A DNA stretch of 64,000 nucleotides from Actinoplanes flavus (GTDB lineage Bacteria; Actinomycetota; Actinomycetes; Mycobacteriales; Micromonosporaceae), in NCBI RefSeq assembly GCF_017592555.1, contig NZ_JAGFNS010000013.1, forward strand, positions 62,001 through 126,000. The letters run 5' to 3'. The notes beneath the pieces were generated by a model. The model did not search any database. It was not told the DNA's origin and saw nothing but the letters and a program-made list of their open reading frames with translations. Made by a program: the position numbers and the translations under genes. Positions 50,418 to 53,996 of the stretch are shown here, one piece after another. The stretch's first letter is position 1. Each line of letters opens with the position of its first letter.

Positions 50418-50447
50418 ACAGTACGCGGACCTGTCACGGAACACCAA
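50418..50447 (-). promoter_or_regulatory. Promoter of rplJL
   Basis: TTGGTG (50442-50447) and TACTGT (50418-50423), 18 bp apart on the minus strand, directly after the ABC permease gene. Confidence 0.5.
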
Positions 50448-50459
50448 ATCGGGGCGGGA

Positions 50460-51158
50460 CTACGAGCGTGCGCGGCGCAGGCCCGCATACCCGGCGAGGG
50501 CCACGGCGCACCACAGGACCGTCCAGACGACCAGGATCAGCAGGGTCGCGGCGTCCGGGGCGTGGTCCCCACCCAGCTTCCGGGCGGTGGCCATCACCGG
50601 CGGCACCAGCCACGGGGCGATCGAGCCGGTCAGGCCGAGCACGACGACCAGGATCGAGCCGCCCACCAGGACCAGGACACCGGGCAGGATCCGCCGGGTG
50701 ACCGCTCGGCCGGACAGGGCGCCCAGCGTCACGGCGGCGGCCAGCGACAGCAGGTGCGCCACGATCCCGAGCAGGATGCCGGTCTGCGTCGACGGCTCGG
50801 CGCTGTCCGGGCGCGGCGGCGCGATCCCGCCGACCACCCACGGGGCCAGCATCGTGAGGACGCACACCACCGCGGCGAGGAGCACGGCGGCGAGCAGGCC
50901 GCCGGCGCCCTCCCGGAACGGGCCGACGGCGAGGCGGGCCAGCCGGCGTTGAGCGTCCGGTTCGGTGTCCAGCAGCAGCTTGGTGATCCAGGCCAGGACC
51001 GGGAACAGGCAGACCGCCGAGTAGCCGTAGGCGTGCATGGCGAGCGACGGCCCGCCGCCGTACAGGATGGAGAGGATCACCAGCACGGTGATCAGGGGCG
51101 CCACAGCGCGGCCACCGCGCAGAAAACCGGCGAGGCGCATCCGGGTCAGTGCGATCAT
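50460..51158 (-). CDS. ABC transporter permease protein
   Basis: A 232-residue integral membrane protein with about six hydrophobic segments (for example APLITVLVILSILYGGG, GGLLAAVLLAAVVCVLTMLA, LVLVGGSILVVVLGLTGSIA, LLILVVWTVLWCAVALAGYA). No family motif is obvious, but the ATGA overlap with the ATPase gene makes it its membrane partner. Substrate unknown. Both genes are inserted between rplA and rplJ, outside the usual core order. Confidence 0.75.
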   Translation of the reverse strand: MIALTRMRLAGFLRGGRAVAPLITVLVILSILYGGGPSLAMHAYGYSAVCLFPVLAWITKLLLDTEPDAQRRLARLAVGPFREGAGGLLAAVLLAAVVCVLTMLAPWVVGGIAPPRPDSAEPSTQTGILLGIVAHLLSLAAAVTLGALSGRAVTRRILPGVLVLVGGSILVVVLGLTGSIAPWLVPPVMATARKLGGDHAPDAATLLILVVWTVLWCAVALAGYAGLRRARS

Positions 51159-52003
51159 CGCCCCTCGCTCTCGGTGCTTTCGATTCCGGGTACGCCCATC
51201 GCGCTCTGCCCCGGGAAGGGGCGCGTCTCGCGTACCCCCGCCGGGTCTCGCTCCCGGACCCCGAGGACACGGTGACCGGAGGCACGGAGCCGGTCCACCG
51301 TCGCGGCGGCCTCCTGGCGTCGCGCCACCACCTCGACCACCACCTCGTCGGCGCCGGTGTCCGGCTCGGGCTCGCCGGTGTGGTGCAGCCCGTGGCCGGT
51401 GACGGTCCAATGGATCGCGCCCGGCAGGTTGGCGATCTCGCCGCGGTGATCGCTGACCAGGACCGCGCCGCCGGCGGCGGTGACCTCCGCGACGAGTTCC
51501 GGGATGAGCTGACGGGACGGGGCGTCGAGACCCTCCCACGGCTCGTCCAGGACCAGCAGGCCCGGCGTGGTGAGCAGCGCCTGGGCCAGGCCGACCTTCT
51601 GCGCGGTGCCCTTGGAGAGGTCCGGCAGCGGGGTCTCGGCGTGCCCGGTCAGGCCGAGCCGTTCGAGCCACCGGTCGGCGCCGGCCGCGGGCAGGCCACG
51701 GATCTCGGCCATCGAGCGCAGGTAGCCGATCGTGGTGAACGGCTGGGCGGCCGGGAAGCGTTCGGGGACCCAGCCCACCACGGCCGGCCGGTCACGGATC
51801 ACGCCGCGGGACGGGCCGAGCACCCCCGCGGCGAGCTGGAGCAGGGTCGACTTGCCGGCGCCGTTGCGGCCGAGCACCACGATCGTCTGCCCGGGCTCCA
51901 CGGCGGCGTCGATGTCCTGGAGCGTCCAGTCGGCGCGTCGCGCGTACCGGAACCAGACTTTGTCGAAGCGCACGGCCGGAAGCCTGCCACAAAGCCCGCC
52001 CAC
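51155..52003 (-). CDS. ABC transporter ATP-binding protein
   Basis: Walker A LGRNGAGKST near residues 44-53, a diverged signature LSKGTAQKVGLAQAL, Walker B LLVLDEPWEGLD and the H-loop SDHRGEI are all present. The C-terminal 80 residues form an extra acidic/Arg-rich domain (DEVVVEVVARRQEAAATVDR). The start could be GTG 52003 or GTG 51973, the latter closer to the conserved VRFDKVWFRYARR. It is coupled to the permease gene; export or import is not decidable. Confidence 0.85.
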   Translation of the reverse strand: MGGLCGRLPAVRFDKVWFRYARRADWTLQDIDAAVEPGQTIVVLGRNGAGKSTLLQLAAGVLGPSRGVIRDRPAVVGWVPERFPAAQPFTTIGYLRSMAEIRGLPAAGADRWLERLGLTGHAETPLPDLSKGTAQKVGLAQALLTTPGLLVLDEPWEGLDAPSRQLIPELVAEVTAAGGAVLVSDHRGEIANLPGAIHWTVTGHGLHHTGEPEPDTGADEVVVEVVARRQEAAATVDRLRASGHRVLGVRERDPAGVRETRPFPGQSAMGVPGIESTESEGR

Positions 52004-52790: not shown

Positions 52791-52803
52791 TTCACTTACT
52801 CCT

Positions 52804-52843
52804 GTGGTTGATGGCGGGGCCGCTCGCTGACGGCCCCTCCCAC
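52804..52843 (-). promoter_or_regulatory. Candidate L1-binding leader hairpin
   Basis: On the minus strand GTGGGAGGGGCCG pairs with CGGCCCC and, after an asymmetric internal loop, CCAC, about 10 bases before the rplA ribosome-binding site (AGGAGT). The stem with asymmetric loop resembles L1-binding sites in other rplK-rplA leaders. Similarity is judged by eye only. Confidence 0.45.
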
Positions 52844-52866
52844 TGAAATCGCCGGTCGTCCGGCGA

Positions 52867-53577
52867 TCAGATCTTGGTGACCTGGTTGAAGTTCAGCTCG
52901 ACCGGGGTCTCCCGGCCGAAGATCGACACCAGGACCTTGAGCTTCTGCTGGTCGGCATTGATCTCGCTGATCGAGGCCGGCAGCGAGGCGAACGCGCCGT
53001 CGGTCACCGTGACCGAGTCGCCCACCTCGAAGTCGAGCACCTTGACCTCGGGCTTCGCCTTCTTCTCCTCGGCCTGGACAGCCGGGGCCAGCCACTTCAG
53101 CACCTCATCGAGGGAGAGCGGGGCCGGCCGGTCGACCCGGTCGGTGGCGCCCACGAAGCCAGTCACACCGGGCGTGTTGCGCACGCAGGAGTAGGACTCC
53201 GGGGTCAGGTCCATCCGGACCAGGATGTAGCCGGGGAAGACCTTGGCCTGCACCTGGTTGCGCTTGCCGTTCTTGACCTCGACCTCTTCGCGGGTCGGCA
53301 CCTCGACCTGGAAGATGAACTCCTCCATGTCGAGGCTCGTGATCCGGGTCTCGAGGTTGGTCTTGACCTTGTTCTCGTAGCCCGCGTAGGAGTGCACGAC
53401 ATACCAGTCGCCGGGGGCGTAGCGCAGCTTCTGCCGCAGCTCCTTGACCGGGTCGTAGTCCTCGTCAGCCTCGGGCGCCTGAGCCTCGACCGGCTCGGCG
53501 GCCTCGACCGGCTCCTCGGTCTCCAGCGACGACTGCTCGTCAGCAAACTGCGCGGTCTCGTCGTCGTACTCAGGCAC
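52867..53577 (-). CDS. nusG: Transcription termination/antitermination factor NusG
   Basis: A 236-residue NusG. Residues 1-50 are an acidic Glu/Ala extension usual in actinobacteria. The NGN domain follows ([52 protein letters not shown]) and then the KOW domain ([20 protein letters not shown]). GTG start at 53577. 44 bp after secE. Confidence 0.97.
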
Positions 53578-53621: not shown

Positions 53622-53996
53622 TCAGCCCAGCGCCCATAGCATCGCTTTACCGAACGCGTAGTCCAGGCCGGCCACGATGGCGGTCATGATCACCACGAAG
53701 ACGATCACGACACCGGTGTAGGTGAGCAGCTCTTTACGGGTCGGCCAGATGACCTTGCGAAGCTCGCTGACGACCTCGCGGAAGAAGCCACCCACCCGGC
53801 CGAAGAGACCCGAACGCCGGCCCGACTTCCTGGTCTTGGGGCTCTCCGAGTCACTCCGCTCGGCGACGGCGGTGCCACCGCCGGCGGTCACCAGCGCGTC
53901 ATCGGCGTTGTCGTCCGGAACATCGCCACCGGCGGCGGCGGCGAGCAGCTCGTCGTCGCCCGGGACGTCGTCACCGGGCCGGTCCTTCTCGGCCAC
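53622..53996 (-). CDS. secE: Preprotein translocase subunit SecE
   Basis: A 124-residue SecE. The first 65 residues are an acidic, disordered extension; the conserved part is FFREVVSELRKVIWPTRKEL followed by one membrane helix (YTGVVIVFVVIMTAIVAGLD). It clamps SecY. GTG start at 53996, 105 bp after tRNA-Trp, the common actinobacterial order. Confidence 0.95.
   Translation of the reverse strand: MAEKDRPGDDVPGDDELLAAAAGGDVPDDNADDALVTAGGGTAVAERSDSESPKTRKSGRRSGLFGRVGGFFREVVSELRKVIWPTRKELLTYTGVVIVFVVIMTAIVAGLDYAFGKAMLWALG

Follow-up and report, generated by a model that had tools for sequence, protein, structure and literature searches.

Comparison of sequences across the family Micromonosporaceae shows that, in Actinoplanes, the housekeeping gene of ribosomal protein L11 (rplK) has been displaced by a divergent L11 paralogue, here called L11-B. 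We consider it likely that L11-B was an inducible L11 for thiopeptide resistance and that, once domesticated, it displaced the housekeeping rplK. If this is true, a ribosomal protein that is nearly universal in other bacteria has given way for good to a paralogue for antibiotic resistance.

Absence of rplK from the nusG–rplA junction

In the window, i.e., the whole stretch of 64,000 nucleotides of Actinoplanes flavus DNA that was analyzed, nusG (52867..53577, minus strand, with a GTG start at 53577) and rplA encoding L1 (52071..52790, minus strand) are both intact, with scores of 199.2 bits for TIGR00922 (cut-off, 135.7) and 336.9 bits for TIGR01169 (cut-off, 216.3), respectively. The upstream neighbor secE (53622..53996, minus strand; 74.8 bits for TIGR00964) is in the normal order, and rplJ (L10; 49641..50186, minus strand) and rplL (L7/L12; 49209..49598, minus strand), both named from their reading frames without a family search, follow downstream in the same direction. 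An earlier note on this DNA had claimed that rplK is missing between nusG and rplA, and this was borne out: the two full-length genes are 76 bp apart (52791..52866, minus strand), and this spacer contains no L11 reading frame. We also noticed that the usual L11–L1/L10–L12 neighborhood is split by minus-strand genes at 50434-52003, where an ABC transporter ATPase gene (51155-52003) and then a membrane-protein-like frame stand between rplA and rplJ–rplL.

The spacer of the window was aligned with the rplK–rplA spacers of three relatives (G069, G118, and G165) and with the nusG–rplA spacer of G094, a genome of a neighboring genus; 27 of the 79 columns are invariant across these five rows. From base 24 onward, the spacer of the window matches the rplK–rplA spacer of the relatives, and the deletion therefore ends near the rplK stop codon and leaves the rplA leader in place. 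Its end is not placeable to the base, as no alignment is seen over the first 23 bases. Judging from this alignment, what was removed from the junction is rplK together with the nusG–rplK spacer, and the rplA leader was retained. The leader has a conserved element, GTGGGAGGG...CGCCA...ACCACAGGAG (52799..52843, minus strand), which includes the Shine-Dalgarno sequence and which we take to be a possible L1 feedback site; a search of Rfam near the junction gave only a tRNA.

The earlier note had proposed to compare the junction in close relatives, and the comparison found the same arrangement throughout. Namely, the end of nusG stands directly before rplA, with no L11 between them, in all 30 rplA loci examined from the genus (that of the window and 29 others, of 67 genomes), and the junction of G094 is likewise without L11. 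The genus is taken here as Actinoplanes in the wide sense and was placed by named relatives (A. derwentensis 94%, Paractinoplanes rishiriensis, Winogradskya humida, Krasilnikovia, and Spirilliplanes 81%). The loci of the remaining genera have the end of L11 inside the rplA locus in 27 out of 27 cases, and in 25 of these the end of nusG is there as well, upstream of L11.

The single L11 of Actinoplanes

Exactly one L11 match was found in each of the 67 Actinoplanes genomes sampled (16 are single contigs), and the outright loss of L11 raised in the earlier note is hence refuted. The search of the rest of the genome for rplK, also proposed there, did find an intact L11 gene on another contig, and this gene belongs to the separate lineage L11-B. 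It is the only L11 gene of the genome, rplK-B (G000:C23:239716-240138, corresponding to L111:9814-10239, minus strand), and codes for 141 amino acid residues. Relocation, as a further proposal of the earlier note, is thus right in that the L11 gene sits elsewhere and wrong in that the gene is an old divergent paralogue co-existing with rplK in other genera, not a moved rplK. Because the protein is simply named L11, the displacement is hidden in the annotation.

Actinoplanes L11-B has both of the L11 domains over their cut-offs (PF03946, 51.6 bits; PF00298, 91.7 bits) and begins with MPPKKK, as does ordinary actinobacterial L11. Its score with the NCBIfam equivalog of bacterial L11 (TIGR01632) is 133.9 bits and thus below the cut-off of 141.85 bits, and its identity to ordinary L11 of the family is ∼47-53% among the matches listed. 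An AlphaFold2 model based on a 20-row alignment (mean pLDDT, 87.9; pTM, 0.64) matched ribosomal L11 in Foldseek with the best TM of 0.92/0.93, and L11-B is accordingly modeled with the L11 fold. As the only L11 found in the genome, L11-B is presumably the one on the ribosome. Purifying selection on L11-B is evident from the median pN of 0.054 and pS of 0.268 (496 pairs of 32 sequences, that of G094 included).

Downstream of rplK-B is a ClpP-like gene in the convergent direction, and upstream are a transglycosylase gene and then TypA/BipA. It may be added that the neighborhood (L111:439-14570) has the genes for the ribosome-linked GTPases RsgA and TypA/BipA, the ClpP-like gene, and a TerC gene, all four of which are present again in the locus of G094.

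In 23 of the 32 leaders from genomes with L11-B alone (hereafter, B-only), TTGACC is followed after 18 bases by a TAAGGT-like hexamer at about 110 bases before the start codon. The genome of the window has a weaker variant of this promoter-like element (TTGGTG, 18 bases, and TACTGT), and the leader of G094 gave no match to the pattern. Downstream of the element, the leader is conserved and has a ribosome site resembling AAGGAG; Rfam gave nothing over the gathering score at this leader. From its upstream sequence, rplK-B of Actinoplanes looks like a constitutive gene.

L11-B as a separate lineage

We searched 300 genomes of Micromonosporaceae (67 of the genus and 233 others) using Actinoplanes L11-B as the query and listed the best matches. 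L11-B is the sole L11 in the 67 genomes of the genus and in G094. Among the matches listed, furthermore, L11-B was found beside ordinary L11 in 18 of the 233 genomes from other genera, with identities of 55-71%, and the remaining genomes of the family had one match at the ordinary level; with this query, no L11 match was obtained in G091 and G156, and the one in G127 is very weak. One genome (G293) has two L11 matches, the better of which is at the ordinary level.

A tree of 99 L11 proteins, composed of 50 ordinary and 49 B rows and rooted at the midpoint, splits ordinary from B with a support of 100/100; the labels of the locus rows were set by a three-residue motif, with which the tree agrees. 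The B-only clade lies inside B, and its sister is the accessory copy of G118 (99/93), a genome that also keeps ordinary L11 between nusG and rplA. The B-only clade and the G118 copy are joined by a weak branch (84/66) to 26 other accessory rows, and the B rows of Pseudonocardiaceae and of genus g5 are outside that branch. In a tree of RplA and NusG from 44 genomes, the 17 sampled B-only genomes come out together, though weakly supported (64/60), and the partner of G118 is G137, not Actinoplanes. The copies of L11-B have therefore probably moved between genera.

Outside the family, L11 of the B type was found in Kibdelosporangium, Kutzneria, Pseudonocardia, Thermoactinospora, and Nonomuraea. 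When 394 genomes of the class were surveyed, the matches listed included two more second copies that are B-like by identity, namely those of G523 (61%), in which the B motif was read, and of G481 (55%), which is B-like by identity alone. The best single-copy outsider in this survey (G429; 53% among the matches listed) has ordinary L11 at the nusG junction. Eight of the 394 genomes gave no L11 match; in G307 and G351 (98% and 100% complete), for which the ten best candidates were scored, the lack of a match may be a search artefact. Identities were below 60% in all of the best 20 of 78 records of plasmid L11 genes and in all 19 records of phage L11 genes. An rplK gene is present on several small plasmids of staphylococci, which are similar in size, and near rplK in a plasmid of Staphylococcus hominis (L338) are a YcaO-like gene, a gene with the lantibiotic dehydratase C-terminal domain, and a precursor of the thiocillin/thiostrepton family. 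Collectively, the trees and searches portray L11-B as a separate lineage that is an accessory second copy in other actinomycetes.

Loss of the N-terminal prolines at the thiopeptide site

The thiazole rings of thiostrepton stack on prolines of uL11, and changes in those prolines or in A1067/A1095 of 23S rRNA lead to resistance, as stated in a review (PMC5960728). When the prolines are positioned at 22, 24, 25, and 28 by alignment with Mycobacterium smegmatis, ordinary L11 reads P-A-P-P-V-G-P in this block, with T for the final P in 5 of the 50 rows, and the B rows have a one-residue gap followed mostly by M, V, D/E, L/I, G, and K. All 50 ordinary rows retain at least three of the four prolines, and 47 of 49 B rows have none of them; the two exceptional B rows, both of genus g5, keep one proline. 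The link to thiopeptides drawn in the earlier note has proved a good lead. The remaining L11 lacks the prolines of the thiopeptide site, and its role in resistance is a putative one.

As a separate candidate, a compensating change in the GTPase-associated center of 23S rRNA was sought in 14 genomes, 12 of which matched, with one locus read in each. It was rejected, as the core sequence of the seven B-only genomes is also present among the five ordinary-L11 ones; in the draft of the window's own genome and in G082, the 23S search gave no match. We also note that two genomes from one other family of the class (G429 and G459; loci L333 and L334) have ordinary L11 with PPVGT, i.e., the last proline of the loop changed to threonine, like the TclQ-like copy described below.

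A MerR-type operator before accessory L11-B and TipAS

The upstream region of accessory L11-B has TTGAC separated by 19 bp from a −10-like element, and the spacer contains a dyad, e.g., CTCCAGTnnCTGGAG. Among the 18 family copies, 14 have the ATG codon exactly 7 bases past the −10-like element, and the messages are thus likely to be leaderless. When promoters were scored against up to 300 shuffles, the MerR-type operator was present in 20 of the 21 accessory promoters (17/18 in the family and 3/3 in Pseudonocardiaceae), with scores of 11-14 that no more than 1 of 300 shuffles equaled. G118 is the accessory copy without it (score 6, with 222 of 300 shuffles as good), and none of the 32 B-only promoters reached a score of 11 (scores 7-10); the best of them (L018) was equaled by 1 of 100 shuffles.

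A strict pattern made from the accessory promoters gave a single match in 10 of 22 genomes and always at L11-B, as expected by construction; sites at other genes are the independent evidence. With a looser pattern, a scan of 30 genomes gave 19 sites in 14 genomes, namely 11 at L11-B, five at stand-alone TipAS, and three at MerR-like genes, which were assigned by eye from the reading; the reversed pattern as a control gave three sites. As the three sites at MerR-like genes show, the geometry of the operator is general for MerR promoters. In the TipA regulators, TipAS is the part to which thiopeptides bind (PMC7762955). The five TipAS sites account for all five sampled two-copy genomes of genera g25 and g44 and, at the stringency of the scan, for 5 of the 18 two-copy genomes. 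In the corresponding loci (L283, L284, L285, L298, and L299), the stand-alone TipAS has no MerR domain, is apparently near-leaderless, and has the operator of the L11-B type in front. The window's own genome has a similar MerR-type operator before a MerR-like gene (L282; G000:C2:78868-78892), possibly for autoregulation.

With a limit of E <1e-30, a TipAS match was found in 11 two-copy genomes out of 18 (in 16 with a limit of 1e-3) and in 0 of the 67 Actinoplanes genomes, 17 of which have weaker matches (best, 7.4e-26). Among the five operator-bearing genomes of genus g32, G173 and G179 gave no TipAS match and G165 a sub-threshold one only. In 8 of the 18 loci, furthermore, the 3′ end of accessory L11-B is overlapped or directly adjoined by the gene of a small protein, a possible co-regulated partner (L094:9426-9812, L095:9438-9833, L097:9482-9838, L098:9487-9888, L103:10192-10611, L104:10229-10648, L105:1454-1873, and L108:9326-9784); one of the three that were scanned has the CGNR zinc finger (PF11706).

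Discussion

As to how an inducible resistance L11 could have displaced rplK, we infer a thiopeptide-resistance function of L11-B and an order of events as follows. Accessory L11-B would be switched on by thiopeptides via a putative activator of the MerR/TipA type, and the induced L11-B would take the place of L11 on the ribosome so that the stacking surface for the thiazole rings is removed; TipAS would meanwhile soak up the drug. In the ancestor of Actinoplanes and the neighboring genus, L11-B would have turned constitutive, as the missing operator, the promoter-like sequence, the leader, and the Shine-Dalgarno sequence suggest. Constitutive L11-B would have made rplK dispensable, leading to its deletion, and thiopeptides would permanently have no effect, or a smaller one, on the ribosomes of the genus. 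On balance, we lean toward the view that Actinoplanes and the neighboring genus run on a former inducible resistance L11 and are intrinsically insensitive to thiopeptides, and that some other actinomycetes keep the inducible form, together with a TipAS regulon in two genera.

Several observations count against this explanation. The copy of G118, the sister of the B-only clade, has no operator, and moderate TipAS matches are present in 17 of 67 Actinoplanes genomes; also, the B-only clade is nested by a weak branch (84/66) in a tree rooted at the midpoint. Further points on this side are the geometry of the operator, which is general for MerR promoters, the score of the B-only promoter L018, the sharing of the operator with TipAS in just 5 of the 18 two-copy genomes at the stringency of the scan, and the outcome of the TipAS search in G173, G179, and G165. 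Thiostrepton resistance is the stated actinomycete marker of a vector used in Actinoplanes teichomyceticus (PMC3897980), which hints that this strain is sensitive enough to thiostrepton for selection and would speak against thiopeptide insensitivity of the genus. In a genome screen for self-resistance, Actinoplanes friuliensis is listed with a minus for rplK (PMC9290621), which counts against the resistance reading.

The use of the thiostrepton marker would rather fit a displacement that is real but has a cause other than thiopeptides; namely, L11-B might have been fixed by drift, or for a purpose such as another stress or tuning of the binding of elongation factors or the stringent factor. 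Sharing of the operator with TipAS in just 5 of 18 two-copy genomes is in line with such a cause, as is the CGNR-like small protein, not a known drug gene, that accompanies accessory L11-B at its 3′ end in 8 of the 18. Nonetheless, the altered residues are the prolines of the thiopeptide site, and the operator is shared with TipAS, a family described as thiopeptide-binding (PMC7762955); we thus regard a cause other than thiopeptides as rather unlikely.

Quite improbable is a simple relocation, in which ordinary rplK moved and then changed fast and the accessory copies in other genomes would derive from Actinoplanes. The start with MPPKKK as in ordinary actinobacterial L11 would agree with it, and so would the midpoint root and the 84/66 support for nesting the B-only rows among the accessory ones; however, the B rows of Pseudonocardiaceae and genus g5 fall outside the B-only clade, the ordinary/B split is supported at 100/100, and G118, with the accessory B sister to Actinoplanes B, has ordinary L11 between nusG and rplA. 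An assembly gap or contamination, with rplK present and left unassembled at the junction, can be dismissed, and with it the assembly deletion suggested in the earlier note; although the window is from a 94-contig draft, the junction is the same in 30/30 loci of the genus, and one L11 is found in 67/67 genomes, including the 16 single-contig ones.

A resistant core ribosomal protein is usually either a costly mutant or the second copy of a producer. A genus that has a divergent L11 alone would mean that the cost can be overcome, and Actinoplanes would offer a natural system for the role of the L11 proline loop with elongation factors and the stringent factor. Accessory L11-B, furthermore, suggests that a TipA-like response can have an arm in which the drug target is replaced on induction. 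We found no description of L11-B displacing rplK in the open-licence literature, which is not proof of novelty.

In terms of mechanism, the known proteins nearest to L11-B are TclQ/TclT, the L11 paralogues of the thiocillin/micrococcin clusters in Bacillus and Staphylococcus. According to two reports (PMC12724294 and PMC10704990), the proposal for TclQ is that it substitutes for the native L11 of the ribosome and blocks thiopeptide binding via an altered N-terminal proline, which is a proline-to-threonine change, and tclU is a putative MerR-family gene of the cluster. On that basis, TclQ and L11-B have in common a second L11, alteration of the N-terminal proline(s), and a link to the MerR family, whereas TclQ is inside a biosynthetic cluster in strains that keep native L11 and Actinoplanes L11-B has replaced rplK. 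By sequence, L11-B is not nearest to TclQ; the TclQ-like copy of S. hominis has a mean identity of 51.9% to ordinary L11 vs 42.1% to B. This copy keeps three of the four prolines, and the loss in L11-B (none of four in 47/49 rows) is more extreme. The possibility that accessory L11-B is part of a thiopeptide biosynthetic cluster was tried separately and rejected, as a search of the neighbors gave L11 alone: the seven non-L11 genes of the S. hominis cluster had no match at E 0.01 among frames of at least 60 amino acids in 21 accessory loci of 11-20 kb. This search covered the accessory loci and used single sequences, by which distant relatives can be missed.

The thiostrepton-resistant L11 mutants of Thermus and others resemble L11-B in the changes of N-terminal prolines of uL11 (PMC5960728; rplK mutants of T. 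thermophilus are cited in PMC9290621). These are, nonetheless, mutants of rplK, whereas L11-B forms a gene lineage of its own that has become fixed in a genus. The TipA class (TipAL/TipAS) is alike in its MerR-type promoter and in its thiopeptide-binding TipAS, and one type of operator stands before TipAS and L11-B in two genera; it is described, however, as acting by sequestration and transcriptional activation, and replacement of a ribosomal protein is not mentioned for its regulon in the accessible part of PMC7762955.
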